IMG/VR virus record: IMGVR_UViG_3300008450_000368
Span: 1 to 27,264 of that record
Length of the DNA stretch: 27,264 bases
Direction: 5' to 3' (one strand)
Source of the DNA: a virus
Part shown: piece after piece, positions 3,278 through 21,501 of the stretch
How positions within the stretch are numbered: the first letter of the stretch is position 1
Layout: each line of letters opens with the position of its first letter
Position numbers and translations under genes: made by a program
Notes under the pieces: generated by a model
The model's input: only the letters and a program-made list of their open reading frames with translations
Databases searched by the model: none
What the model was told of the DNA's origin: nothing

Positions 3278-6200
3278 ATGGCAAACATCACGAGGAACTT
3301 CATAGCGGGTAAAATGAACAAGGTCGTAGACGAGCGACTTGTTCCAAACGGAGAGTACATCAACGCACTCAATATCCGTATGGGCTCCACGGAGCAGTCT
3401 GAGATAGGTGTTGTAGAGAACACAAAAGGAAACATACAGCTTACTACCTTAAAATATATTGATGGCACTCCGCTTAGCTCCTCTGCAAAATGTATTGGAG
3501 CTATTGACGATAGTGCTAATGAAACGCTTTATTGGTTTATTCACGACTCAGCATTTCCTGTAGGCGCTACAGGGAAGCTTGATATGATTGTATCCTTTAA
3601 TGTGCTGACAGGGATACTAACCTATCACGTAGTTAGTATTGACGATGGAGATGGTGTAAATACCACTCTGAATTTTAATCCGCAATATTTAATCACAGGG
3701 GTTGACCTAATTGACAAGTTGATATTTTTTACGGATAACTACAACCCTCCAAGAGTTATCAACTTTACTCGTAACTACGCAGATCCAATTGGCAACATAG
3801 ACCAATTCAGTGCGGAGTCAATCCTTGTCATAAAGAAACCACCTGTTGAAGCTCCCGGAGTACAGCCTATAACTACAGGAGATCAATCCAACTTTTTACA
3901 AGATAGGTTTATATGTTTTGCCTATCGCTATCGTTATGAAGACGGAGAGTATTCTGCCACTTCTCAGTGGTCTGCTCCTGCTTTCCAACCAAACCCATTT
4001 GAGTTCAGCATCAATAGCTTCCTTAATGAGGGAATGGTAAACCTGAACAATACAGCCATTGTAACTTATAATACAGGGGGACCGCTTGTAAAAGGCATTG
4101 ACCTTTTATTTAAAGAAGCGGGCACAAGTATTATTAAAATAATTGAAAAGCTTGACAAGGCAAATCTTGGTCTTGCTGATAATACCAACTACACTTATAC
4201 GTTTACAAACAGTAAGATATTTACTATCCTTCCTGAGTCCGAGCTTCTTAGACTATACGATAACGTGCCTTTACTTGCAAGAGCGCAAACCATTATGGGT
4301 AACCGCTTGATGTATGGCAACTACGTTGAGGGGTATAATATGTTGGATGCTGATGCAGCTCCTGTAAAGCTTGAGTATGAAGCCAATTTAATTTCTGAAT
4401 TAATTGATACTTCTACTGTTCCCGACAGTACAACTTCGGGTATATACTTTTTTGGTAATGGCGGTACAATACCAAACTCAATTGTAAATATTGACTTGGC
4501 TGGGTTAGACCTTATTGAAGGTGCATCTATAACCCTTGAGGTTCGTCTTACCCATCAATCTTTTACAGGAGATACGCCACCTCCTACAGAGACTACTGAA
4601 AATGTTGCTGCAACTTTCTCTTTCTCTTTGCCCACAACATACGGTTCAGTGTACGAGATGGTTACAAGCATTGAGTTTCAAGAAGCGGTAGGTACCGTTG
4701 CAAATATTCAAACTGTTGCCAACGCTTGTAACGGAACGACATTTACGGATCAAATCAACTGCGCTATTCCAAACAACTTGGATGCGCTTATAAAATATCA
4801 AAGTGGTATTAGTGCTGCAGGTCAGCCTATTGGTTTAGTTACTTCACCGGCAAGTACGGTGATTGGATTTATTATGCCTGCAATGAGATTTGTAGATAAT
4901 ACAACTACCCCCACTTTTAATGTATACGAATACTACTCAATTAGCTTTGCCGAGGCTTTCTATCAAAAGATTAACTCACCAAAGAGCTTGCATAGCAATA
5001 GAGGTTATGAGATTGGTATTGTGTATATGGATGAGTATGGTCGCTCTACTACAGCACTTGTAAGCCCCAACAATACGGTACACGTACCTTGCTCGGCTTC
5101 TGATACCAAAAACTCTATTCAGGTTACAATACCACCTACACAAGTAGCTCCATATTGGGCGAAGAGATACAAGTTTGTTATCAAGCCCGATGAAGAGAAT
5201 TACGACACTATTTATAGTAGCATATTTTTTAATGACCCACTAAGCAATAATGCTTACTTCTTGCTTGAGGGTGAGAACGCTCGTAAAATTGAGCAGGGAG
5301 ATAGGCTGATTGTAAAAGCTGACACGAGTGGTCCTACGCAGACTTGCGTATATGCTACAGTACTTGAGAAAGAAGCAAAGCAAGCAGGATTTATTGAGAT
5401 ACCAAGCGAGCTTGACCCTGCTGTAAATGTTCCTATTCCTTCAGGAGTATATATGAAGATTAATCCTAACAACTTTGCTGTTGTACAGAATGAGCTTTCT
5501 ATTATAGCTCCGGGTACCGAGCAAGTTGATCAGGATGAAGCAGGAGAGTATCCAATCCTCAATTACCCAATGAATAGGTTTGATACCGCTACTTCAGCTT
5601 GGGTTGACTATACTGTTCCTGCCGGTAGTCGTATCAAGCTTGACCTTAAGTTCCAACGTCTTGGCGTGGGTTCAGGAAGTGCATCTTGTGAAAAGCGTAT
5701 CTATACTCTGCAAAAAACATTGGTTGCTTCTGCGAACTACGACAATATGCAGGATTGGTTCAATGGTGATAATGTAGCGCAGATACTTAATGATGGTGTT
5801 CAAGATATTGGAGGCAATAACTGCGAGGCTGATAACGTGTATATACCAACACTTGCATCAAGCAATATTGATATACCAACTGATTTATGTACTAACTACT
5901 ATAGGTTCTATCGTAACCCTGCTAATAATCAGTTGACGCTGATTATGAGTGGTACTGTTCGTTGCGGTGGGGTACTTTCAAGAGAGAAGCGCAGGTCCTC
6001 GATTACTGCTAACATTGAGGTATTTAGGGCTGAAACCACTATAATATTTGAAACAGAACCTGCCGATGCTTTACCTGATGTATTCTTTGAAAATGAACTT
6101 TCTTTTGGTATAGATGCAAATGGCAACCATTTAGGTAACGTACAAAATCAAAATATTAGCACAAATACTCCGGCTATTGTAAATACGGAGTTCTTTAACT

Positions 6201-7984
6201 GCTTCAGTTTTGGTAATGGTGCTGAGAGTTACAAGATTCGTGACTCAATTATTGGTAAGACCTTTAACCTTGGCAACAGAGTTTCGGGTGTATCGGCACA
6301 AGATTATAAACGCACGCATAGGTTTGCCGACATCACATATAGTGGTGTGTATAACTTTGAGTCAAATGTTAACAAGCTTAATGAGTTCAACTTTGGACTC
6401 CTTAATTATAAATACTTAGAAGTATCTTTTGGTCCTATCTATAAGATGGATGGGCGTGAGACTGACGTGCTTGTACTCCAAGAAGATAAGATTTCATACG
6501 TACTTGCAGGTAAGAATTTGCTATCAGATGCTGCAGCCGGTGGTGCTATCACCTCTGTGCCTGAAGTGTTGGGTACGCAGATTGCAAGAGTGGAGAAGTA
6601 TGGTATCAGCTTCAACCCCGAGAGCTACGTTCAATGGGGATACTATAGATTCTTTACTGACGTAAAGCGTGGAGCTGTCCTTCAACTTGTCGGCAACTCA
6701 TACAGCTCTGATCAGTTAAAAGTGATATCAGAGTATGGTATGCGGACTTGGTTTAGAGATGAGTTTATTGAATCTTTTAATACACAGAAGCTTGGTGGCT
6801 TTGACCCATATATGAACGAGTATGTTCTATCCTCTAATGAGGAGGAGATACCACAGCCACAAGAGTGTTTAGCTTGCGGAATAGGTCAGACCTTTACAAT
6901 TGCTGCAGGAGATACAGCTACTTACTGCGTAGACTTAGGGTCAGTAGTAGGAGACAGTACCGTTACTTACACGGTAGACCCTTCTTCGACTGCAGAGTTT
7001 GAAGTTGAGGCTACGTATAACAATATAACAGAAAGCTCAGGCATTGTATCTGCATCAAGTTCTTTAGTTGTAGAAAAGAATGTCAACAATATTAATGAAG
7101 TCGTAATTACGATTACAGCTATAGACAATGTAACAGTTACGGTCAATGTAGGCTGTCCGTATGTAGACCAAATAACTATACTTAGAGTTTGTCTTACAAG
7201 TAATCCTGACGCAGGTAAGTATATCCATAATGAATACAGATATACTGATGGCGACTATGTTTCTCCTCTTCAGTCAAGCTTAATTACATTCGGTTCTTCT
7301 GCTCAGAGTCCCGTTGTTTCGGGATATGATGATGTTACGGGTGCCCCAGGCACAGGTGGGTTCCCGCCTGCAGGAGCAACGATGGAGATTATCTCCAACA
7401 AGATTAACTTCGACAACTTCATATTTAATTCTTCAACCAACAAGTTCAGATACTTAAGAACTAATACCCTTTACGCAAATACACCTGTAGATATTGCAGC
7501 AATGCTTGCTGCTTCTACGCAGGCTACCCCAATTACAGGATCAGCTCCAACTTATATGAGCTCATTTACTGTTCCAACTGTGGGTCAGTATTTATATTTA
7601 ATATGGGATTACAGAAACTCACTACCGCTTAGTTTATGTTATTCAGAAATTGATGGAAGTGATGCTTGCTGTGGATGCTTACCTCCTTATGTGGTATTGT
7701 GTTATGCTGCTACAAACGCATCAGACTCCTGCTGCGATTGTCCAACTTCACAGGGGTACTACTTAGGCGGTGGTAATACACTTGCTTCTGCTGTAAGTAT
7801 TTATACTGATGCAGGGCTTACCACACAAGCTCCTAACGGATACTATTCTCAGGGAGGACTTGTTCGTCAGCAGATTGCAGGAGTATTACAAGCACAGCAA
7901 TCTTGCCCGGGTTGTGGAACTGAGGTATCACTTTGTTATTCAAACGTAGACGCATTTGACGCTTGTTGCGGATGCCTACTATAA
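3278..7984 (+). CDS. Large muzzle / tail-stabilisation-type protein with cysteine-rich C-terminus (1568 aa)
   Basis: This probably forms the distal part of the short tail through which DNA leaves the virion. The N-terminus has the block DERLVPNGEYINALNIR (about residues 18-34) followed by SEIGVVENTKGN, which I recognise from tail-hub, stabilisation and muzzle proteins of podophages. The long beta-rich body has no membrane segment. Near residue 1197 a cysteine pair (ECLACG) opens a beta-sandwich-like region. The C-terminus changes character. Three 15-residue repeats of the form LCYxxxxxxDxCCxC lie at residues 1453-1467, 1474-1488 and 1552-1566, the last ending two residues before the stop. Between repeats two and three lies a roughly 54-residue module (1493-1546) that recurs in the next gene. 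A role in receptor binding or tip anchoring for this end is inferred. No catalytic motif was seen. Confidence 0.7.
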   Translation: MANITRNFIAGKMNKVVDERLVPNGEYINALNIRMGSTEQSEIGVVENTKGNIQLTTLKYIDGTPLSSSAKCIGAIDDSANETLYWFIHDSAFPVGATGKLDMIVSFNVLTGILTYHVVSIDDGDGVNTTLNFNPQYLITGVDLIDKLIFFTDNYNPPRVINFTRNYADPIGNIDQFSAESILVIKKPPVEAPGVQPITTGDQSNFLQDRFICFAYRYRYEDGEYSATSQWSAPAFQPNPFEFSINSFLNEGMVNLNNTAIVTYNTGGPLVKGIDLLFKEAGTSIIKIIEKLDKANLGLADNTNYTYTFTNSKIFTILPESELLRLYDNVPLLARAQTIMGNRLMYGNYVEGYNMLDADAAPVKLEYEANLISELIDTSTVPDSTTSGIYFFGNGGTIPNSIVNIDLAGLDLIEGASITLEVRLTHQSFTGDTPPPTETTENVAATFSFSLPTTYGSVYEMVTSIEFQEAVGTVANIQTVANACNGTTFTDQINCAIPNNLDALIKYQSGISAAGQPIGLVTSPASTVIGFIMPAMRFVDNTTTPTFNVYEYYSISFAEAFYQKINSPKSLHSNRGYEIGIVYMDEYGRSTTALVSPNNTVHVPCSASDTKNSIQVTIPPTQVAPYWAKRYKFVIKPDEENYDTIYSSIFFNDPLSNNAYFLLEGENARKIEQGDRLIVKADTSGPTQTCVYATVLEKEAKQAGFIEIPSELDPAVNVPIPSGVYMKINPNNFAVVQNELSIIAPGTEQVDQDEAGEYPILNYPMNRFDTATSAWVDYTVPAGSRIKLDLKFQRLGVGSGSASCEKRIYTLQKTLVASANYDNMQDWFNGDNVAQILNDGVQDIGGNNCEADNVYIPTLASSNIDIPTDLCTNYYRFYRNPANNQLTLIMSGTVRCGGVLSREKRRSSITANIEVFRAETTIIFETEPADALPDVFFENELSFGIDANGNHLGNVQNQNISTNTPAIVNTEFFNCFSFGNGAESYKIRDSIIGKTFNLGNRVSGVSAQDYKRTHRFADITYSGVYNFESNVNKLNEFNFGLLNYKYLEVSFGPIYKMDGRETDVLVLQEDKISYVLAGKNLLSDAAAGGAITSVPEVLGTQIARVEKYGISFNPESYVQWGYYRFFTDVKRGAVLQLVGNSYSSDQLKVISEYGMRTWFRDEFIESFNTQKLGGFDPYMNEYVLSSNEEEIPQPQECLACGIGQTFTIAAGDTATYCVDLGSVVGDSTVTYTVDPSSTAEFEVEATYNNITESSGIVSASSSLVVEKNVNNINEVVITITAIDNVTVTVNVGCPYVDQITILRVCLTSNPDAGKYIHNEYRYTDGDYVSPLQSSLITFGSSAQSPVVSGYDDVTGAPGTGGFPPAGATMEIISNKINFDNFIFNSSTNKFRYLRTNTLYANTPVDIAAMLAASTQATPITGSAPTYMSSFTVPTVGQYLYLIWDYRNSLPLSLCYSEIDGSDACCGCLPPYVVLCYAATNASDSCCDCPTSQGYYLGGGNTLASAVSIYTDAGLTTQAPNGYYSQGGLVRQQIAGVLQAQQSCPGCGTEVSLCYSNVDAFDACCGCLL
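7634..7975 (+). repeat. Three cysteine-rich protein repeats (LCYxxxxxxDxCCxC)
   Basis: In-frame copies lie at 7634-7678 (LCYSEIDGSDACCGC), 7697-7741 (LCYAATNASDSCCDC) and 7931-7975 (LCYSNVDAFDACCGC). Each has four cysteines in fixed spacing: one near the start, an adjacent pair, and one more. The DNA has diverged more than the cysteine pattern, so selection on the protein is likely. Disulfides or metal binding are both possible. Confidence 0.85.
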
Positions 7985-8169
7985 AATAAAATGAAATGGC
8001 AACACAAGGAACATTCTATTTAGACGCACCATCACTGAGCTCAGCCTCTGTAATTTATGATGATGCTAACTTAACTACAGTAGCGGCTGATGGTTTCTAC
8101 TCTGACGGAACAATTGTGCGTGAGCAGGCGTTAGGAGCGCTGCTTCCACAGGTGTCGTGTCCTTCTTGT
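7754..8169 (+). repeat. Module duplicated across two adjacent tail genes
   Basis: The protein segment at 7754-7915 (end of the muzzle-type protein) and the one at 8011-8169 (start of the next protein) align end to end. Both read roughly YxxxxxLxSAxxIYxDxxLTTxAxxGxYSxGxxxRxQxxGxLxxxxSCPxC. The copies sit 95 bases apart on either side of a stop and a new start. Confidence 0.85.
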
Positions 8170-8652
8170 AACAATGAGTTCTTAGTAGGCTTTGGCGGTG
8201 CTGCTGAAGATGCTTGTGACTTCTTGGCTTCAGGAACGGTTACCGGTGATGACCCTACGTTCTGCGATTGTACTACGTTTACCGGAGCAATATTTTCTGC
8301 AGCAGCAACAGGCACCTATCACGTGTCCTTTGGCGGATATAGTGTTGAGGTAAGTGTAACAAACGGAAACCCTATTGCTACCGTTACCGGCATCTGTGTT
8401 ACTTGCACGCCATCATACTCATTTAGTGGTAGTGGTGTCAGCAATGTAAACGAATCAGGTGCTTGTGGTGATGCAACTACAAATCCAAAGACACTTTATT
8501 CTGACTGTGCAGTATTAACAACAGGATGTTTGCTTTGTTGGGATGCTGCCTTACAATCTCCTGTAACAGAGCTATATGCGTTTGTGCCAACTCAGAATTG
8601 GGATTTAGATGGAAATGGTCTTATTGTTTCTTCATCATCAATTCAATGTTAA
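7996..8652 (+). CDS. Small cysteine-rich tail-tip protein (218 aa)
   Basis: The start is the ATG at 7996; an ATG at 7991 in another frame opens only a very short frame. Residues 6-58 repeat the module found near the end of the preceding 1568-residue protein, ending in SCPSC. Two further weakly similar segments follow, each opening with a lone cysteine (DACDFLASG near residue 74, then ESGACGDATTN near residue 153) and containing an FCDC or YSDC turn. The protein has more than ten cysteines, no signal peptide and no membrane helix, and ends on cysteine. It is rich in Ser, Thr, Gly and Asn, as are exposed beta-rich adhesins. With only 11 bases between it and the upstream stop, it is co-expressed and probably assembles with the muzzle-type protein at the tail tip. 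The receptor-binding role is inferred. Confidence 0.6.
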   Translation: MATQGTFYLDAPSLSSASVIYDDANLTTVAADGFYSDGTIVREQALGALLPQVSCPSCNNEFLVGFGGAAEDACDFLASGTVTGDDPTFCDCTTFTGAIFSAAATGTYHVSFGGYSVEVSVTNGNPIATVTGICVTCTPSYSFSGSGVSNVNESGACGDATTNPKTLYSDCAVLTTGCLLCWDAALQSPVTELYAFVPTQNWDLDGNGLIVSSSSIQC

Positions 8653-8655
8653 TAG

Positions 8656-9462
8656 ATGCCAAATAACACACTTACATATAGCGAAGGGGTACAAGGATGG
8701 GCGTCCTTTTACTCCTTTATGCCCGATTGGATGATTGGGATGAATAACTACTTCTATACTTTTAAGGGTGGTAATCTTTACCGCCATAATGTGAACGAAC
8801 TGCGTAATAATTTTTACGGCACCCAATACAACTCTGAGCTTACAAGTGTATTTAACGATGCGCCCCTTGAGAATAAATTATTTAAAACCATTAATTTGGA
8901 GGGGGATGCGCCTTGGGATGCCACAATGCAAACCGATATTCAAGACGATGGTTTTGTGGATGATTCGTGGTTTGAAAAGAAGGAGGCGTCTTGGTATGCT
9001 TTTGTGAGAAATGATGGCACCATCCCTGCTCAACCCTCTGAGTATGCGCTTAGATCTACAAATGGTATAGGTCGCAGCACTACGATTACAGGAACAGGGG
9101 CTGCCGTACAGGTCAACTTTGCCATTGGTGCAAGCCCTATTTTAATAGGAAGCATCATAAGCATAGGCGATATCCTTTACTACAGCCTACCGCCTACCTA
9201 TAACGCTCCTTTGTTGTTTGGTCAGGTTACCAATATTCAGGTTAATTATCCATCCAACCTTAACAGGATTACGGTGGATACGACCATACCGGGAGCAACC
9301 ATACCGGGGATACAGAACCCGTACATAATGTTTATCAAAAACTCTGTAGCTGAGTCGCACGGGGTGCTTGGGCACTACTGTGTTTTCACCCTTGAGAATA
9401 ACAGTACAAACAAGGTGGAACTCTTTGCTGTAGAGTCAGAAGTGATGAAAAGTTATCCTTAA
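8656..9462 (+). CDS. Tail protein with YSEGVQGWASFYSF-type domain (268 aa)
   Basis: The N-terminal third reads TYSEGVQGWASFYSFMPDWM (residues 7-26), then NNYFYTFKGGNLYRHN (30-45) and FNDAPLENKLFKTINLEG (66-83). This aromatic-rich block is one I recognise from the tail-tube, stabilisation or muzzle proteins of many podophages, where it often forms the C-terminal part of the large protein; here it is a separate gene. The rest is beta-rich, with a small internal near-repeat (TIPGATIPG) coded by two similar 12-base stretches at 9283-9294 and 9298-9309. It follows the cysteine-rich gene by 3 bases and shares its transcription unit. It probably packs with the 1568-residue protein in the tail. Confidence 0.6.
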   Translation: MPNNTLTYSEGVQGWASFYSFMPDWMIGMNNYFYTFKGGNLYRHNVNELRNNFYGTQYNSELTSVFNDAPLENKLFKTINLEGDAPWDATMQTDIQDDGFVDDSWFEKKEASWYAFVRNDGTIPAQPSEYALRSTNGIGRSTTITGTGAAVQVNFAIGASPILIGSIISIGDILYYSLPPTYNAPLLFGQVTNIQVNYPSNLNRITVDTTIPGATIPGIQNPYIMFIKNSVAESHGVLGHYCVFTLENNSTNKVELFAVESEVMKSYP

Positions 9463-9483: not shown

Positions 9484-9894
9484 ATGGCATTAATTGTACA
9501 ACCATTAAACGAAAATGACTACGATTCTGTATTAGTGGGTTGGTGGAACGCTTGGGGTTGGACTCCTCCAAAAAAGGATTTCCTCCCTGATGATGGCAAA
9601 GGAGGCATAATGGTGTATGATGGTGAGGAACCGATATGTGCAGGGTTTATATATACCACAAATTCAAAGGTTGCGTGGGTTGATTGGATAATATCGAGCA
9701 AAGAGTATAGAAAGAAACCTGAGAGAAGTGAAGCGATAAAATTATTAGTTAGTACGCTGACTAATATTTGTAGAAATACGGGGCATAAATATACTTATGC
9801 TTTGATAAAACATCCAAGCCTTGTAGAGACCTACAAAGAAATAGGTTATATGAAAGGTGATGGATACATAGGAGAACTAATTAAAGTATTGTAA
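9484..9894 (+). CDS. Small GNAT-fold acetyltransferase-like protein (136 aa)
   Basis: The product has the size and layout of a GNAT-fold protein. An N-terminal helix rich in Trp (VGWWNAWGW, residues 18-26) is followed by a LPDDGKGGIMV strand turn and the central strands GFIYTTNSKVAWVDWIISS (54-72). A helix after RKKPERSEAIKLLVSTL (76-92) lies where acetyl-CoA would bind. The canonical R/QxxGxG/A loop is replaced by a charged, glycine-poor sequence, so catalysis is uncertain. Similar small proteins occur among tail genes of marine phages; their substrates are unknown. It lies one base before the next gene. The region fits a virion or early takeover role, but neither is shown. Confidence 0.6.
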   Translation: MALIVQPLNENDYDSVLVGWWNAWGWTPPKKDFLPDDGKGGIMVYDGEEPICAGFIYTTNSKVAWVDWIISSKEYRKKPERSEAIKLLVSTLTNICRNTGHKYTYALIKHPSLVETYKEIGYMKGDGYIGELIKVL

Positions 9895-12603: not shown

Positions 12604-15600
12604 ATGAACGAACAAGCAATAATAGACTCATATAACTTATTCGTAAAGAATGGGTATACCGACTCCATCGAAGACTTTAAAAAGTTAATTGCATCTAACC
12701 CACAGGCGTTATCCGACTCATACAATCTATTTAAAAATAACGGATACGGTGACTCTATCGATGACTACAAGTCCTTGATGGGGCTTGCTGCTGATAAAAA
12801 AAAAGTCGATACGGTATCACCTTCGGCAGTTGGTTCTTTGGTCTCGCCAAAGATTGAGCGTGCCGTTGCTGAGTCCACAGGTATAAAGCCACAGATGCTT
12901 GGTCCTGCTCCTAAGAAAGAGGAGCCGACTCCCATATCTACAGAACCCGAAAAGCCTTATTTCACAGGCAGATTTGGGGAAGCTCTGAAGATGATGGATA
13001 GCCCATTAAATCCTTTGGGTGGATTGGGCTTAGGTGATAAAATAGATGACCTCGCAAGAGCAATAGATGTTGGTTACAAGCAAGGGGCTTCGGCAGCGCC
13101 TACTTCGATTGTAATGGCTAAGGGAAATAGTATTACTTCTGAAGATTTAAAAAAATATATAGCTGCAGCAAAACTCATTGAAAAGACAGGACAGTCTGAT
13201 GAGATGAGGAACTTTACAAGAACTTATGAGGAGGGTGGTAAAACTGTAGTTAGTTTCTTAAAGGCATTAGCTAATAATCCGTCTGTCCCCTTTGAATATA
13301 TAGCTTCATCTATAAGCGCTCGCTTGAATCCTGTTTCTGCTGCTGCTGCTGGTACAGTAGTAGCGGGTTTTGCAGGAACGGGTGCAGTAGCAGGAGGCGC
13401 TCCGGGTGCGGGAGCTGCTGCAATAGCATCAATTCCTTGGGCAATAGGTGCATCTGCAGCAACACTTGAGACAAGCGCTACATTTTCTGAACTGCTAAAT
13501 GAGCAACTGCAAGAGAAGGGATTAGAGTTTAATGAAGAGGGTGTTAGACAAGTTCTTAGTGATGCCGGTGCTGTAAACAAAATGAGAGTTAAAGCTGCTG
13601 CCAAAGGTGTTACTATTGGTTTAATTGATAGATACACAGCAGGTATAGCGGGTAAGGTTGGCGCAAAGCTTGCTTCTAAGGGCGCAGTAAAAAGCGCAGC
13701 AGCAGCAGCGGGTGGTATAGAAGCTGTTGGCGGATCTGTAGGTGAGGCAGCATCTCGTGCACTTATTGGACAACCATTAGATGTAGCAGAGATTGCGATG
13801 GAGGGTATAGCAGAAGTTCCAATGGCAGCCATTGACTTGGGTGCAGAGGTTCTAAAAAAGCCTGTATATAAAATCAATGGAGAGATTAGACCCGAATCGG
13901 ACATTCAGGATATAATTCAAACTGCTACTCCTGATGAGCTTAGCAAGATAAATATTGATATTAAGAACGATAAGAAGGGGTATGCAAATCAGATACAAGA
14001 CAAGGTTGTAACAGGTCAGATAAGAAAGGATGTTGAACAGGCTAACCCTAATGTTGACGACACTACCATAGATGAATTGGTTAGTCTTGAGAAAGAACTA
14101 AAGAAATTTGAAAATAATAAAACGCAGTCAGGAAAAGACAGGGCTGCTGCTATTCGTTCACAAATTAAAACCATACAAGAAGATGCCATTCAAGAGCAAG
14201 CAGCAGGTCAAGTACCTGTACAGCCAACACCCGGAGATCGCGAAGCGTTGGCGGAAGGAGAACCCCAAGCAAAACCTGAAGTCATTACCGAAGAAGGTGT
14301 CCCGCAAGAAAAAGTAAAGCCTGTTGATTTTTCTACTCAGCTCGAGCAGAAATATGGTGTTCAAGTGGACTTGTTAGGTAGTTTGGATAAGGGCAACCTT
14401 AGTCTTTCAAGAATTGTAATACCTGAAGGACAGCGTGGTACAGGAATTGGAACGCAGGTGATGGAGGACATTGTCAACTACGCTGATGAGAATAAAGTAA
14501 AAGTAACTCTTACGCCATCAATAGACTTTGGCGGTGAGTCGGTTGAAAGACTGACTGACTTCTATAAAAGGTTTGGATTTGTAGAAAACAAAGGGGATAA
14601 CAAAGACTTTACCATAAAGGACACGATGTATCGTGAGCCTCAATTAGCAAAAACAATTGAACAAAAGATATATGAAACTTTACCGACTGAGAGGTTACAG
14701 CCCCAACCCGGGATTGTTCAACCCCAAAAAGCAGCAGAAATTAAGCCAACAGGACTTGCAGTCCCTGTACAACCTTCTCCAAAAAGAGCAGAAGTCAAAG
14801 GCTCCATTGAAAGAATCGCCAATGCAGGGCTTCTCCGCTCCGCAGAAACAGGGCAACCTGCAATAACGCAGCAAGAAATTGATGCGCAGATGGAGCTGAC
14901 CGATGCGATGGCACGGGTGTGGGAAGAGACAACAGGACAAAACAACTTCTACGAAACTTTCATCAGCGATGTAAAAGAAGGAGATGTGCAAGCCATCAAA
15001 GAAAAGGGTGGTGCGCTTTTCCAAAACACAGAGGTTCCACAAAGACCCATAAGCAGGGTAACGCTTGGCGTATTTGAGCTGCCTGAGTTTCAAAAAATGA
15101 AAGGAGTCTCTGTCGCTCCTCAATCTATTAGCGACTTGATGAAGTCTCGTGGCAAGCAGATCGAAAAAGATATTGTTGCTACAGTTCTTGACTACGATAA
15201 ATACAAAGGTCAAAAGAGAATACCATTTGATGAGTTTAGAGATGATGTAGAGACGCAGTTAATGAAGCTCGAGCGCATCGATACTACTACTTACGCTTCT
15301 TATGGTATGGATAACTTGGGTGATAACCAAAACTATGGTAGATCTCAGACCGTTATATTCAACAGCCCAATTGACCACGGTCAGTACGGTCACTTCAGAA
15401 GCGACTTTGTTAAGAGCAACCTCACTCCTACTACTTGGAGTATAAGACAAATACCTAACACTGAGCAGTACGTAGCTATTGATGCTAATATGCCTGCAGG
15501 TACAAGCCAAACAGAAATGGCGCAGTATATTGGTACTGCTGGTCCTATTGCTGATGTAGAAAAGTGGGTTAGCGATAGAAACGCCATAACTGAAAAGGAG

Positions 15601-18600
15601 ATTAACAAAGGTTTGTTTGGTCATATCCGTAATTGGTATAATCAAAACACAGGCGTATATACTTTAGCAGAGCTGCAAAGCGATTACTTCCAAAAGAATA
15701 AAGCCAACGATTTATACGCATCAAGAATACCTCAAGAAGAAGTTGACGAGTATGTCAATAAAAACTTTAGGGTTAAGCTTGACAATGAGTATAGGGAGAT
15801 ATTAAAAAATGAATTAAATATTGCTACCGATATTTTTGTAAACGCAAATGGTGATTTACAAGTAACATCTTTTGTTAAAGATAACCCTAAAGATATTCTT
15901 TATTCGGCATCTTACGACCGTTCATATACTCCTCCGGCAGGTTATACACTAGAAGAAAATAAAGAAAATATAGCTGTTGCTGAAGTGGCAAGAAGGTTAG
16001 CTATTTCAGATGAAGAGATTGCAGATAAAAGAAGGGCAATAAAGGATGAATACGAGACAAAAAGAAGTGCCCTAAAAGCTGAAGAGAATAAATATATAGC
16101 AAAAAGAATAGAGGAGATTAAAAAGTCAGAAGCGGGTAATCTAATGGTAAGACAGTTCGTTGCCTCTCAGAAGGTGCACGAACTACGCCTTTTCAGAGAA
16201 GCCCTTAAGCACGCTGCAGAAAAAGGAGCTACTGAACTGTGGTTCCCTACACCATTCACCATTGCAACCATTGAAGGATACGTTAGTGCAAATGGAAGAG
16301 CACCCTATGATATCATACAAGGTAGTGAAGGAGGTCTTGAGCCGGGTGATATAATTGATTACGGAGGCACTGAGATGATTGTAGTTGACTCCACAGACTT
16401 CTCAATAACAGTTGCTCGGAGAGATGATGTGCAGATATATGATATAGAAGATGTTAGGGTTGATGAGACTAACAATAGAATGGATGAGTTGGAATATGAC
16501 CTTGGTCGTCAGTTTGATAGCATTAACTCTATAACAAAAGAAGATGTTGAGGCGTATCAAACATATGAATTTTTGTCTGAAGAAGTGCTCACACAACTTA
16601 AAGAATACTTTGAAAATAATCCCGAAGAAGAAACAGTTGCTTGGAGTGATATTGAAAGTGGTGTCAGAGACTATGTGTCAAGCTATTACGATGACCTTGA
16701 AGTTCGTGATTTGATAAGTTGGGCTGATGATGTATATCAAGATGGTGATACTGCTTATGCTATTGACGGAAGAACAGGCACTGAAAGACTTGGGCAGCCA
16801 TCAGAGTATGAAAGCGATGTAGACGAGGCAAACTTTGATGGAGAGCTTGATGATGATCAAATGACCGTTGTCAAAAAATATGATGAGCTTGGTCAGATGA
16901 TGCGCAAGATGAGACCTGACGTCACTGAAGTTACAGACAACAACGGCAAGAAGTGGCTTAGAACTGCCATCACCGCAAGCGATAAAGCAAATCCAATTAT
17001 TGCCTTCCAAGAAGAAGGAGGTAAAATTAAAGGAGCTATTGACTTTTCAAACGACAACAAGGCTTCTATCTACCTTTTTGATGGCGCTGATATCTCCACC
17101 CTGTCTCACGAAATGAGTGGGCACCTTGGTCGTAGAGTGCTTGAGCAACTGTCAATGGTTGATGAAAGGTTTGCAAAAGACTATGAGACCGCAAAGAAGT
17201 GGGCAGGTGTAGTAGACAATCAATGGTCTCGTTCTGCTGAAGAAAAATGGGCAAGAGGATTTGAGAAGTACTTGCTTACGGGTAAAGCTCCAAGCAAAGC
17301 CCTCAATAATGTGTTCCAAAAATTAAGAGATTGGCTAACCAATATCTACAAATCAATCAAGGGTAGCAGCATAGATATTGAACTAACCCCCGATGTCGTA
17401 AGAGTTTTTGACAACCTACTTTCCACGAGGTCAGAACAGCTAATGACAGCAGACACCAAGGATGCCACTGTCTTACAAAAGGTACTTGACTTTTTGGATA
17501 AAGCTGATGCCGATTTAACCAAGTTTGGTCGTGAGACAGCCGGTATGAATATCACCATACCTGTTATGAAAGCCATCATCAAAACGGTGAAAGCGCTTGT
17601 AAAGACAGGTATCACACTACAGGAAGCTATCAAGAGAGCTGCCGAGAAAAATAATGTAACTGAAAAGGATGTAACCGATGCTATCAATATGCTAGCTCAG
17701 CAGCGTGTCATTCAAGCAAAGCCTGAAGGGGTGAGCGAAATGGAACTGCCCGGCTACAACCGTATGATTGGTGAGCTCGAAGGTGTTATTGAGAAGTCAA
17801 GAGAGCGTGGTGTAGAGGAAGTGCAGGTGATGGACAATGCCATTGCTTACTTACAGGGATCAAGAGTGTACGAGACAGCCTCAGATACGCAGCGTGAGCA
17901 AATGGTTCGTGATGTGCGTAAGATGTTTGGTAAGCGCGAGAAGCCTGCGCCAAAGCCTGAGAAGCTATTTGGTGAGCTCAAGGATGTCAAGATGATTACA
18001 ATGTCTGACTATGACTTGATGGTAAAGCAAATCTCAGACTTTGAAAAAGGTGCTAAGAGCGTTAAGGTTAGATGGAAAAAGACAAGCGATGCCCTTACCA
18101 AATATTTAAAAGAGATGGCTGATGGTGGTCGTATCACCATCAACCAAATGACAGCAGTGCTAAGAAAGTTTGGCGGTGTCAATATGCTTGACCCACGATC
18201 TATAGAAAGATTCGTTCAGTATATGTCACGTGTATTCCAAAACGCTAACTACGCTGAACAGATTGCTGCCATCAACAAGATGTTACCAACAGCAAGGAAG
18301 AACGCACAGACAAAGATTGGTGTTTCACAAACACTAAGCCCACTTCTTAAAAAGCTGTTTGCCATCAACCCCACCCTGATTCCAGATGCTGTCTTTGACA
18401 AGTATACCGAGGTGGTTCAAATGATGGGAGAGCGTAAGGCAGTACTTGAACTGCAAGAGTCAGGTAAGCTAACCGATACGGTAGAAGAAATACTTGATGC
18501 GGTAGATGAAGAAGTGTCTCGCAGCGAGGAGCTGACTGAACTGTTCAGTTCTTATGATGACAAGGTGGTAGATGAAGAGGGTAATATAGACTTCTCCAAG

Positions 18601-21501
18601 ACACTGAAGAGAATGGTCGATAAAGAAGTTATTACCGAACAGGATGCAGCGCTGATGCGTAAGTATAAAAGCACCATCGTTCCAAGACCCGAACGAGTGA
18701 AGCCAACCGAGGAGGAGATTGCTGCGGAAAAAGAAATGCTGATTGAAGAGGTTGCAGATACTGAGGTAGACAGCGATGGTCTATCAATGAAGGATGAGAG
18801 GGATAAAGCTCGTGAGCTTGCAAAGCTTATTAGAACAGATGCAGTAGAAGGGCTTGACAATACACAGCTTAAAAACTTGCTGCGTGTTATTGACAATATA
18901 AACAATGGCTACTTCCCGCACTTTGCCGAGCTAATGGTAGAGCGTTTAAATGCCATCAATGAATCAAAGCCTCTTGATAAGGCTATCAGCACGATAAAGA
19001 TTCCAAAGATGTCTTTGGTATACGCAAAGGTTAAGTCAATCTTTACCGGCAAGGACAAGATATCAGAGCTCATCAGAAGAGAACCGCAGTATTACATTGA
19101 CGCAGCCTTTGGCGACTTCAAAACCAAAACTATATTTAACTCAGTATTTGAGAAGCCTGCCGAAGCGCAGGCAATGTTCAAGCGTTCAGTCACTGAGCTC
19201 AACAATAAGTTAGATCAGGCGGAAGAAGCAGTGTCTAAGTCATACAAATACAATGGTAATGATATAACAATGTCTAAATTCAAGATGATGACCTTTATGC
19301 TTCAGCTTGAATACGACTCCAATCCTGATAACGATCAGGTCAACCCTGCTCACGAGTTCTTAAAAAAGACTATTACCCATATTAAAAACGGGAAGTCAAG
19401 ATTTGGTGTTCGCGATGCTAAGATGCTTGAAAAGATTCTTGAGGATTACGGCGAAAATGGTACAATAGATAACGACAAGCTCTATAAGTCCTTTAACAAA
19501 GCAGAGAAAAGCGCCATCAAGACCATTCAGGAGATTAACAATGAGATGCGCGACAAAGCCATCTACACTGCTGCTGTGGTAAGAGGTGATAAAATTCACC
19601 CTCTCAATAACTATGTGCACTTAAACGTACTACACGAGTACAAGCCTGATGAAAACACTCAGGGCGTGGCGTTCATTGATTCCTATAATAATTCAATGCG
19701 TCCATCCACTAAGGCGAAGTCCTTGATTGCTCGTACCGGAGATGTGTCACCACTGAACTTTGATGTGTTTGCTTCGGCAAGCCGTGGTGCCAAGTTCACC
19801 CTGATGGATTACTATCTGACTGAGCCCATACGTACTTCTCGTAAGACGCTCAACGAGACAAGGAAACTGATGGAAGAGCGTGGAATGAACGAGCAAGAGC
19901 GTGATATATTCAATGCCATTGACAGAGCTTTTGAAGAAGCAGTAGAAGATGTGCTCGTCAATAACTTTACCTCATCGTCATTCTTTGACAGGGTAATTGA
20001 AGTGGCTTCTAAGCAGGGATACCGTGCAGTACTTGCAAGTATACCAAGGTTTATATCGGAGCTATCCTCAAACGTAGCCTTTGCCGCTATTGCCGCTCCA
20101 AAGGATTTTGCTACAGGTATTAAGAATAGAGATATTGTATTGTCGGCTGATGCTTCCACTATAATGAATAACGTAAAGAGTAAGCAGACGAACCGCTTAT
20201 TCCCGCACGACACGCTGAGTGGAAGACTTGTTGACACTTCAATACTTGAGCAAGCAAGTGGTATTAAAGGTGGTAGAGCAACTAATGATGTAGCAAATAA
20301 GATTCAACAGATCTACAATCTCTCACTTAAGAAGTATAAGAACGCAGTAGAAGTAATGGCAGATGCGCTCATCTCAACACCTGATAAGATGGTGATGAGA
20401 CCGATGTGGTTTGGAACATTTGCTAATGAGTTCAAGCGTATCGCAGGTAAGGATATTGACTTCGACAAGGTAGCTGCTAACGATGAGCTATATATGGCAA
20501 AGAACAAGGAAGCCCTTGATGAAGCTCGCAACATAGCAGACCAAAAGACTGTACTTACCGGTGCTACTGACAATGCCTTTATGGGAGTACTAAAAGGCAC
20601 TCCGAAGAAGGACCAAAACGCACTTGTTAAGACGTTCAATACGTTCAATAACTTTATGACTAACTTCTTGATATATGAATATATGACCGCTCGCACAGGC
20701 GTGATGGCTGCGATGGGCAATGGTTCAATATCAAAGAAGCAAGGGGCTGCGCTACTCGCTGCAGTGTCTACAAGGATGACCCTCTATACCTTAACTACAG
20801 CGATGCTCAGTGAAGCGCTAATCAATCTCTTTGTTGAAGACAAAGAGGAAGAAGAAGAGAAGGACTTCATTCAAAAGGCAGGACAGGCGATAGCTTCTTC
20901 TGCTACCTCTTTGTTCTTTGGTCGTGACTTCGGTAACGCCACCAAAGGAGTAATTAACCAAGGAGTAGAGTACGCCAACGAAAAGTATCTTGATTTCTTG
21001 CGCAAGGGTGATTATGATCCATACAAGGATGCTATTCAGTATACGGTTCTACCTCCTGAAAGAAAAGGAAAGCAGGCTGCCTACCAAGATATGATAATGA
21101 ATATGATGGGACCATTCGGTCCTGCTGTCAAGACTTCTGAGTTTGCTTTCAGGAAGTTTACTGAACCACCGAAGAAAGAGGCTGCTGCTCGTCAGCGTGT
21201 AGAAAAAGAAATGCAAATCCGCCTGCCTCTTGAAGTGCTCGGGAACCTCGGCTTAGTACCTCTATACAAAGACATACGTAAGGTTGTCAACGCTGAGATA
21301 TACAAAGAGCTTGACAATGCAGAAAATAAAAAGCCAATGAATAAGATTGGCAAGGAGGATATGAAGCGCTACTTCCCTGATATGTACAAGAATCTGTACG
21401 AGCCGGGTGGTACGCTCTATGACGCAGAGCAAATAAAGAAGGAGATGAGAAAAGAAAAAGAAAGAATTAAACGTGAGATAAAAGATCAAATGTATAAATA
21501 A
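12604..21501 (+). CDS. Giant polyvalent virion protein with GNAT, ELQSD-type and HEXXGH metallopeptidase-like domains (2965 aa)
   Basis: The domain order is as follows. Two tandem 22-residue repeats at 8-29 and 38-59 have the form DSYNLFxxxGYxDSIxDxxxL. Gly/Ala-rich hydrophobic helices at about 245-295 and 346-415 flank a charged helical segment. A GNAT domain at about 575-680 has the acetyl-CoA loop QRGTGIG at 610-616. A domain at about 915-1225 has YGHFRSD (928-934), FGHIRNW (1006-1012), ELQSD (1023-1027) and a helix with AAEKGATELWF; this layout is known from phage polyvalent proteins. A zinc-protease-like HEMSGH lies at 1502-1507 with downstream EEKWARGFEKYL. Long helical regions follow to the end, including an apolar stretch near 2700. 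Such proteins are thought to be packaged and ejected with the DNA. The gene overlaps the next start by one base (TAATG). The substrates of the enzymatic domains are unknown. Confidence 0.75.
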   Translation: MNEQAIIDSYNLFVKNGYTDSIEDFKKLIASNPQALSDSYNLFKNNGYGDSIDDYKSLMGLAADKKKVDTVSPSAVGSLVSPKIERAVAESTGIKPQMLGPAPKKEEPTPISTEPEKPYFTGRFGEALKMMDSPLNPLGGLGLGDKIDDLARAIDVGYKQGASAAPTSIVMAKGNSITSEDLKKYIAAAKLIEKTGQSDEMRNFTRTYEEGGKTVVSFLKALANNPSVPFEYIASSISARLNPVSAAAAGTVVAGFAGTGAVAGGAPGAGAAAIASIPWAIGASAATLETSATFSELLNEQLQEKGLEFNEEGVRQVLSDAGAVNKMRVKAAAKGVTIGLIDRYTAGIAGKVGAKLASKGAVKSAAAAAGGIEAVGGSVGEAASRALIGQPLDVAEIAMEGIAEVPMAAIDLGAEVLKKPVYKINGEIRPESDIQDIIQTATPDELSKINIDIKNDKKGYANQIQDKVVTGQIRKDVEQANPNVDDTTIDELVSLEKELKKFENNKTQSGKDRAAAIRSQIKTIQEDAIQEQAAGQVPVQPTPGDREALAEGEPQAKPEVITEEGVPQEKVKPVDFSTQLEQKYGVQVDLLGSLDKGNLSLSRIVIPEGQRGTGIGTQVMEDIVNYADENKVKVTLTPSIDFGGESVERLTDFYKRFGFVENKGDNKDFTIKDTMYREPQLAKTIEQKIYETLPTERLQPQPGIVQPQKAAEIKPTGLAVPVQPSPKRAEVKGSIERIANAGLLRSAETGQPAITQQEIDAQMELTDAMARVWEETTGQNNFYETFISDVKEGDVQAIKEKGGALFQNTEVPQRPISRVTLGVFELPEFQKMKGVSVAPQSISDLMKSRGKQIEKDIVATVLDYDKYKGQKRIPFDEFRDDVETQLMKLERIDTTTYASYGMDNLGDNQNYGRSQTVIFNSPIDHGQYGHFRSDFVKSNLTPTTWSIRQIPNTEQYVAIDANMPAGTSQTEMAQYIGTAGPIADVEKWVSDRNAITEKEINKGLFGHIRNWYNQNTGVYTLAELQSDYFQKNKANDLYASRIPQEEVDEYVNKNFRVKLDNEYREILKNELNIATDIFVNANGDLQVTSFVKDNPKDILYSASYDRSYTPPAGYTLEENKENIAVAEVARRLAISDEEIADKRRAIKDEYETKRSALKAEENKYIAKRIEEIKKSEAGNLMVRQFVASQKVHELRLFREALKHAAEKGATELWFPTPFTIATIEGYVSANGRAPYDIIQGSEGGLEPGDIIDYGGTEMIVVDSTDFSITVARRDDVQIYDIEDVRVDETNNRMDELEYDLGRQFDSINSITKEDVEAYQTYEFLSEEVLTQLKEYFENNPEEETVAWSDIESGVRDYVSSYYDDLEVRDLISWADDVYQDGDTAYAIDGRTGTERLGQPSEYESDVDEANFDGELDDDQMTVVKKYDELGQMMRKMRPDVTEVTDNNGKKWLRTAITASDKANPIIAFQEEGGKIKGAIDFSNDNKASIYLFDGADISTLSHEMSGHLGRRVLEQLSMVDERFAKDYETAKKWAGVVDNQWSRSAEEKWARGFEKYLLTGKAPSKALNNVFQKLRDWLTNIYKSIKGSSIDIELTPDVVRVFDNLLSTRSEQLMTADTKDATVLQKVLDFLDKADADLTKFGRETAGMNITIPVMKAIIKTVKALVKTGITLQEAIKRAAEKNNVTEKDVTDAINMLAQQRVIQAKPEGVSEMELPGYNRMIGELEGVIEKSRERGVEEVQVMDNAIAYLQGSRVYETASDTQREQMVRDVRKMFGKREKPAPKPEKLFGELKDVKMITMSDYDLMVKQISDFEKGAKSVKVRWKKTSDALTKYLKEMADGGRITINQMTAVLRKFGGVNMLDPRSIERFVQYMSRVFQNANYAEQIAAINKMLPTARKNAQTKIGVSQTLSPLLKKLFAINPTLIPDAVFDKYTEVVQMMGERKAVLELQESGKLTDTVEEILDAVDEEVSRSEELTELFSSYDDKVVDEEGNIDFSKTLKRMVDKEVITEQDAALMRKYKSTIVPRPERVKPTEEEIAAEKEMLIEEVADTEVDSDGLSMKDERDKARELAKLIRTDAVEGLDNTQLKNLLRVIDNINNGYFPHFAELMVERLNAINESKPLDKAISTIKIPKMSLVYAKVKSIFTGKDKISELIRREPQYYIDAAFGDFKTKTIFNSVFEKPAEAQAMFKRSVTELNNKLDQAEEAVSKSYKYNGNDITMSKFKMMTFMLQLEYDSNPDNDQVNPAHEFLKKTITHIKNGKSRFGVRDAKMLEKILEDYGENGTIDNDKLYKSFNKAEKSAIKTIQEINNEMRDKAIYTAAVVRGDKIHPLNNYVHLNVLHEYKPDENTQGVAFIDSYNNSMRPSTKAKSLIARTGDVSPLNFDVFASASRGAKFTLMDYYLTEPIRTSRKTLNETRKLMEERGMNEQERDIFNAIDRAFEEAVEDVLVNNFTSSSFFDRVIEVASKQGYRAVLASIPRFISELSSNVAFAAIAAPKDFATGIKNRDIVLSADASTIMNNVKSKQTNRLFPHDTLSGRLVDTSILEQASGIKGGRATNDVANKIQQIYNLSLKKYKNAVEVMADALISTPDKMVMRPMWFGTFANEFKRIAGKDIDFDKVAANDELYMAKNKEALDEARNIADQKTVLTGATDNAFMGVLKGTPKKDQNALVKTFNTFNNFMTNFLIYEYMTARTGVMAAMGNGSISKKQGAALLAAVSTRMTLYTLTTAMLSEALINLFVEDKEEEEEKDFIQKAGQAIASSATSLFFGRDFGNATKGVINQGVEYANEKYLDFLRKGDYDPYKDAIQYTVLPPERKGKQAAYQDMIMNMMGPFGPAVKTSEFAFRKFTEPPKKEAAARQRVEKEMQIRLPLEVLGNLGLVPLYKDIRKVVNAEIYKELDNAENKKPMNKIGKEDMKRYFPDMYKNLYEPGGTLYDAEQIKKEMRKEKERIKREIKDQMYK
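12625..12780 (+). repeat. Two tandem N-terminal repeats, 30-residue period
   Basis: The copies at 12625-12690 and 12715-12780 encode DSYNLFVKNGYTDSIEDF and DSYNLFKNNGYGDSIDDY with the following KxLI/SLM. The period is 90 bases. They lie at the very N-terminus of the giant protein, a likely place for a packaging or docking tag; this role is inferred. Confidence 0.85.

Follow-up and report, generated by a model that had tools for sequence, protein, structure and literature searches.

Domain shuffling in phage receptor-binding proteins, with a conserved anchor and variable display domains, is known. The muzzle is the tail-tip assembly of crAss-type phages. The muzzle gp44 of crAss001 (PDB 7qok/7qol/8ckb; PMC10172136) is one chain of 1371 aa, and its Ig domains hang distally from the inter-blade loops (PMC10172136). 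In Cellulophaga phi18:3 (Pachyviridae), the muzzle is divided between two genes, gp114 and gp115, whose products are both listed as virion proteins from MS/MS.

The DNA analyzed here, called the window, is a 27,264-base IMG/VR virus record, a fragment and not a whole genome, from a large, uncultured group of crAss-like phages. It appears to encode the muzzle in two genes, muzzle-N and muzzle-C, with another gene, ORF2, between them. Two elements at the boundary of muzzle-N and ORF2 were named in this analysis: B, an LCYx6DxCCxC motif, and A, a 54-residue module. Domains downstream of A were named D1 to D9 by profile. By profile, the window muzzle belongs to the same family as gp44, with the N-terminus and a C-terminal segment aligning, and both have domain insertions on a propeller scaffold; the crAss001 tail is moreover disulfide-stabilized. 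However, gp44 has nothing at the junction between YFTYKD and HCLCYSE, whereas in the window the chain is interrupted at this point, with the B/A cassette in the gap. The split into two genes is common to the window and phi18:3, where D1 ends gp114; phi18:3 differs in that B/A was not detected, no separate cassette ORF exists and a bacterial Ig (Big_9) domain is found instead. Podoviridae sp. ctfjg026 (MW202828.1, Manatee Spring) is the only curated or annotated phage with a significant match to A or B-A. It resembles the window in gene order and in a muzzle-N with one B, and its next ORF (183 aa, labeled 'putative glycosidase') starts with A; unlike the window, it has no fused A-B link and another domain follows A. 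No description of the split muzzle or of the A/B module was found in openly available papers.

Gene Block of the Window

The left part of the window is a crAss-like virion block, including virion structural proteins of PHROGs 13704, 14543, and 13977. These are followed, all on the plus strand as are the other features given below, by muzzle-N (3278..7984; 1568 aa), which ends in the cassette, the cassette protein ORF2 (7996..8652; 218 aa) and muzzle-C (8656..9462; 268 aa). Muzzle-N matched the virion structural protein of PHROG 14478 (E 1.6e-222) and was homologous to phi18:3 gp114, a protein found in virions by MS/MS; its N-terminus aligned with residues 28-159 only of crAss001 gp44 (hhalign prob 89, E 2e-6), and no match to Pfam was obtained, including the full-length crAss_MUZ family PF25731. 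Muzzle-C matched Pfam PF25729 (crAss_MUZ_C) above the cut-off (E 1.7e-18) and aligned to gp44 residues 1199-1283 (E 7e-8). Profile searches of PDB with muzzle-N or muzzle-C found nothing. Judging from sequence comparison, the 1568-aa and 268-aa proteins are to be regarded as the N- and C-terminal parts of one split crAss-type muzzle. The alignment with gp44 and the PHROG assignment bear out the muzzle-type identity that an initial annotation of this locus had given to the 1568-aa protein. The same annotation regarded the cysteine-rich region as the end of the tail protein, which is correct for the 1568-aa chain, of which it forms the C-terminus, but not for the muzzle, which continues two genes downstream.

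The gene break corresponds in position to the gp44 junction given above and maps to a loop of the gp44 beta-propeller, which from the strand pattern would be a B-C loop of a propeller blade. In propeller topology, B-C loops and inter-blade loops share one face, so the cassette is probably distal on the muzzle. The distance from muzzle-N to muzzle-C ranged from 0 to 4.5 kb in the window and its relatives (loci are denoted by L numbers), and the muzzle is one gene in Elemovirus phages (L005) and two adjacent genes in phi18:3. Protein splicing by an intein at the split was rejected, with no Hint-type Pfam family in muzzle-N, ORF2 or muzzle-C.

Several other features were observed around these genes. 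At the same muzzle split site, L133 (3582-7536) and L136 (3615-7554) have four extra genes, one like an NAD-dependent sugar epimerase and one like an iron/2-oxoglutarate hydroxylase by eye, and their muzzle-C has a proline/threonine-rich linker at the N-terminus; possibly, this gene set is a glycan-related cassette. Directly after muzzle-C in the window lies a 136-aa ORF (PHROG 17252; 9484-9894), whose counterparts have 134-139 aa in several relatives though the preceding genes vary. A 2965-aa protein (12604-21501) with partial matches to the very long PHROGs 32588, 9880, and 10691, which are of unknown function, is perhaps a cargo or polymerase-type protein. In addition, intergenic gaps in the window (7985-7995) and in relatives are A-rich and have no clear Shine-Dalgarno sequence, as is often so in Bacteroidota phages.

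B Motifs and A Modules at the Gene Boundary

Three LCYx6DxCCxC repeats had been described at the C-terminus of the muzzle-type protein, and they are present at residues 1453 (LCYSEIDGSDACCGC; 7634..7678), 1474 (LCYAATNASDSCCDC; 7697..7741) and 1552 (LCYSNVDAFDACCGC; 7931..7975), while 20,000 shuffles of the 1568-aa protein gave 0 matches. The last motif ends two residues ahead of the stop, also as described, and is the candidate partner of A copy 2. The second lies four residues ahead of A copy 1, and the first has no A behind it. A copy 1 occupies residues 1493-1546 of muzzle-N (7754..7915; profile 73.5 bits), and A copy 2 residues 5-58, at the N-terminus of ORF2 (8008..8169; profile 103.3 bits). 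They matched each other directly with 48% identity (E 1.2e-12), in agreement with the earlier observation that a module of about 54 residues reappears where the 218-aa protein begins. The order across the gene boundary is B-B-A-B, stop, A, which positions 7634-8169 bracket exactly, and the three B motifs are not consecutive. The B/A region of muzzle-N comprises residues 1453-1566, and 26 of the 42 cysteines of this protein fall within its last 123 residues. Behind A, ORF2 consists of D3 (VGFGG...VTGDDPTFC; 8176..8406), which is reused in other architectures of relatives, and D4 (GVSN...NPKTLYSDC; 8407..8649), which has other partner domains in L012 and L016. A frame or genetic-code error as the source of the pattern was ruled out, the ORFs being clean under table 11.

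A search with 17 diverse A modules gave no match in Pfam and nothing significant in PHROG (best E 0.015, in single members), and the 218-aa ORF2 matched neither Pfam nor PHROG. The 592 pattern matches to A in bacterial genomes included no relative.

Cassette Variation Among Relatives

Six scans of viral contigs recovered about 370 loci, with many contigs represented more than once, and 147 remained after duplicate removal. B was present in muzzle-N at 139 of these 147 non-redundant loci, and at 134 of the 139 the next ORF begins with A. Overall, 27 ORF2 architectures occur in the 147 loci, A-D1-D2 being the commonest; A, D3, and D4 are common to L016 and the window, and in L016 D1-D2 separates A from D3. 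Cassettes differed in 32 of 74 locus pairs with >88% muzzle-core identity. Even at 97-99% muzzle-core identity, relatives can have different numbers of copies, another fusion state or other downstream domains; in this range the cassettes of L304 and L311 and of L238 and L241 differ. The comparison with close relatives that had been suggested for this locus therefore found a region that is not kept unchanged, and the proposal of an exchangeable cassette was upheld by the variable copy number, fusion, and downstream domains. In the muzzle-N tails of L038, L039, L041, and L061, a short cysteine motif like YNCxxGxCxDPGDGTGTYxTLxxCxxxC was also observed; motifs of this kind occur singly or as runs of as many as eight, after B and in ORF2.

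Tail fibers mutated by diversity-generating retroelements have been reported for zeta crAss-like phages (PMC12386605), and such an element or another programmed system might have made the variation. We regard this as extremely improbable: the reverse transcriptase PF00078 was found in none of eight relatives (roughly 60-64 kb), with control genomes positive, and the variation is by whole domains.

Adjacency and Fusion of B and A

An A module inside a longer chain comes immediately after a B, from which a few linker residues separate it (L048 twice, L082, L084, L085, L230, L233, L235, L303, L356 and the window clade), and the sole listed internal A that does not follow B is a weak 25-bit match in L293. 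Where the chains are separate, the stop-to-start spacing between muzzle-N and ORF2 is -1 to 28 nt and covers all three frames, which means that the two are separate proteins; the same spacing ruled out a programmed frameshift or readthrough giving one B-A protein. Since ORF2 starts and stops at codons of its own, and this spacing excludes a fixed frameshift product, B and A might be taken for independent small modules, with the cassette protein an unattached accessory co-located by operon structure only. Such independence appears quite unlikely to us, as it is opposed by the position of internal A directly after B, by cases elsewhere in which these domains are covalently fused to the muzzle, and by the difference between the AlphaFold models of A behind B and at the start of ORF2 (see below).

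In five loci (L010, L011, L012, L015, and L227), an 81-aa ORF has A at its start and B at its end, and A also opens the ORF that follows. An A-B link lies within muzzle-N itself in the window and in L007, L008, L009, L088, and L048 (twice). At the level of sequence, the internal A copy of the window corresponds to an extra A-B link fused to muzzle-N, which relatives would have as the separate 81-aa ORF. The pairing is not strictly one to one, several loci having one more B than A, and in many muzzle-N proteins 70-170 further residues follow B, so that B and A are not adjacent there.

The split state was found in 124 of 135 scored loci, natural B/A fusions occurred at 11 non-redundant loci, and the muzzle tree implied at least six changes between the two states. 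L085 is wholly fused, with B-A-D1-D2-D8 in a single chain of 1905 aa directly ahead of muzzle-C, and L147 has a degenerate B...A in one chain. These fusions, together with the state changes, the single unsplit muzzle gene of elemoA phages and the occurrence of D1 within phi18:3 gp114, would suit the explanation that all of these are pieces of one ancestral insert-bearing muzzle gene, which broke and rejoined at tolerant points and left ORF2 as a passive remnant under no selected docking. A passive break should nevertheless decay, whereas the split state is the majority, ORF2 in that state has a conserved start (MATxxTYY) and the cysteine set is kept in both halves; we consider passive breakage somewhat unlikely. 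We favor instead the reading that B and A serve to dock the two proteins. A module is shared over the gene boundary as the initial annotation stated, but what was there called module shuffling is better read as a two-part module with its halves on neighboring genes.

Structure Models

AlphaFold2 was applied to muzzle-N residues 1185-1568 (alignment of 31 rows, about 11 covering A) and to the 218-aa protein (12 rows, about 12 covering A). The former model contains two confident beta-rich domains followed by a folded unit of B motif 2 and A (pLDDT 79-91). The first domain (residues 1190-1297; 6845..7168; pLDDT ~90) resembled SIDT1, subtilase C-terminal and ColG domains (Z 10-12, rmsd 2.1-2.8 over 90-100 residues; VIA-align), and it is modeled as a beta-sandwich resembling pre-peptidase C-terminal/collagen-binding domains, the putative first insert domain after the propeller strand. 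The second (residues 1298-1444; 7169..7609; pLDDT 82-96) ends in the strand YLYLIWDYR and is conserved in relatives. The fold search with this model was dominated by the first beta-sandwich, and that with the model of the 218-aa protein gave a best Z of 4.0.

B motifs 1 and 3, which have no A behind them in the chain, were poorly ordered, motif 1 having low pLDDT. Residues 1-58 of ORF2, which comprise A, were likewise modeled with pLDDT <50 and no secondary structure, and the rest of ORF2 with pLDDT 59-89. The difference between the two copies fits a need of A for a preceding B in its chain to fold, although two shallow, differing alignments could also explain it. Where they are on separate proteins, B and A may assemble in trans.

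Cysteine Pairs in the B/A Module

Columns 27 and 45 of A are both cysteine in 32 of 105 distinct A modules, neither in 73 and single in 0. On the muzzle-core tree, all 8 independent comparisons showed joint gain or loss of the pair (p 0.008), and in the hairpin predicted by AlphaFold2 (337-341/344-349) their register places them opposite one another. Because of this all-or-none occurrence, the joint changes and the register across the modeled hairpin, the paired columns are a disulfide signature within A. The cysteine total was even in 161 of 165 distinct B+A pairs, with B and A usually each even alone. In L046, L051, and L059, B reads CFxC and not CCxC, and the last A cysteine, on the other protein, is also gone; this cross-gene co-loss took no more than two events, each in an A-D6 cassette. 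In L054 the A cysteine is lost alone, on one side, and in L076 the B motif is LCYSETLESSACCDC, with no B cysteine lost. The co-loss is suggestive only as a sign of linkage between B and A, and A-D6 cassettes may have moved as one.

The same B-A docking might also be made by a zinc site formed from CPxC of A and CCxC of B, the spacing of which resembles zinc knuckles, and L046, L051, and L059 keep exactly four cysteines over B+A, which still fits one metal site. We hold zinc in place of disulfides to be unlikely, given that columns 27 and 45 behave as a disulfide pair and that the tail barrel and fiber hubs of crAss001 are held by disulfides (PMC10172136). The same structural precedent contradicts the earlier remark that dense cysteines are unusual for such a tail. 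Disulfides rather than metal are therefore our preferred, though inferred, reading of the cysteines of B and A.

Discussion

Taken together, we propose as the probable explanation, with some reserve, that B and A are the halves of one disulfide-bearing module by which an exchangeable chain, probably an adhesive one, is docked to the muzzle. Three chains would make up the muzzle, namely muzzle-N, muzzle-C and the exchangeable ORF2, which is sometimes accompanied by an additional 81-aa link. The terminal B of muzzle-N and the initial A of ORF2 would be two halves of a small cysteine-bearing module, each pair folding together and probably being locked by disulfides, so that ORF2 is docked onto the muzzle. 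A-B links could be inserted, whether added, fused or split (muzzle-N...B / A...B / A-D1-D2...), with the assembly unchanged, and the domains downstream of A could be swapped. Both the sequences and the models point to the module as the likely means of attaching a surface protein to the tail.

D1 of ORF2 belongs to the muzzle chain itself in two cases, L085 and phi18:3 gp114 (E 1e-18), the latter a virion protein by MS/MS; this supports display of the cassette on the muzzle. We infer a distal placement of ORF2. Its variability and position suggest host contact or adhesion; its most likely role is that of an adhesin, or of a protein in contact with the receptor, displayed at the distal muzzle face. 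More tentatively, the arrangement could amount to a head-to-tail coupling code, in which link proteins that start with A and can end with B form, on the muzzle and across gene boundaries, a disulfide-locked chain of variable surface proteins; this extension is possible, but we would not rely on it.

In receptor-binding-protein domain shuffling the anchor is conserved, whereas in these phages only half a domain seems to serve as anchor, and the end of the preceding gene's product completes it. Domain shuffling in phage adhesins is already known; to our knowledge, half-domain anchoring over a gene boundary would be new. If the proposal is true, it has several meanings. First, the B/A module would provide a natural split-domain pair, small and readily tested at the bench. 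Second, it would give a likely place to many unannotated genes, with 27 architectures and an anchor that has no Pfam or PHROG match. Third, it would explain how widespread environmental crAss-like phages change a likely host-contact surface while the muzzle is undisturbed.
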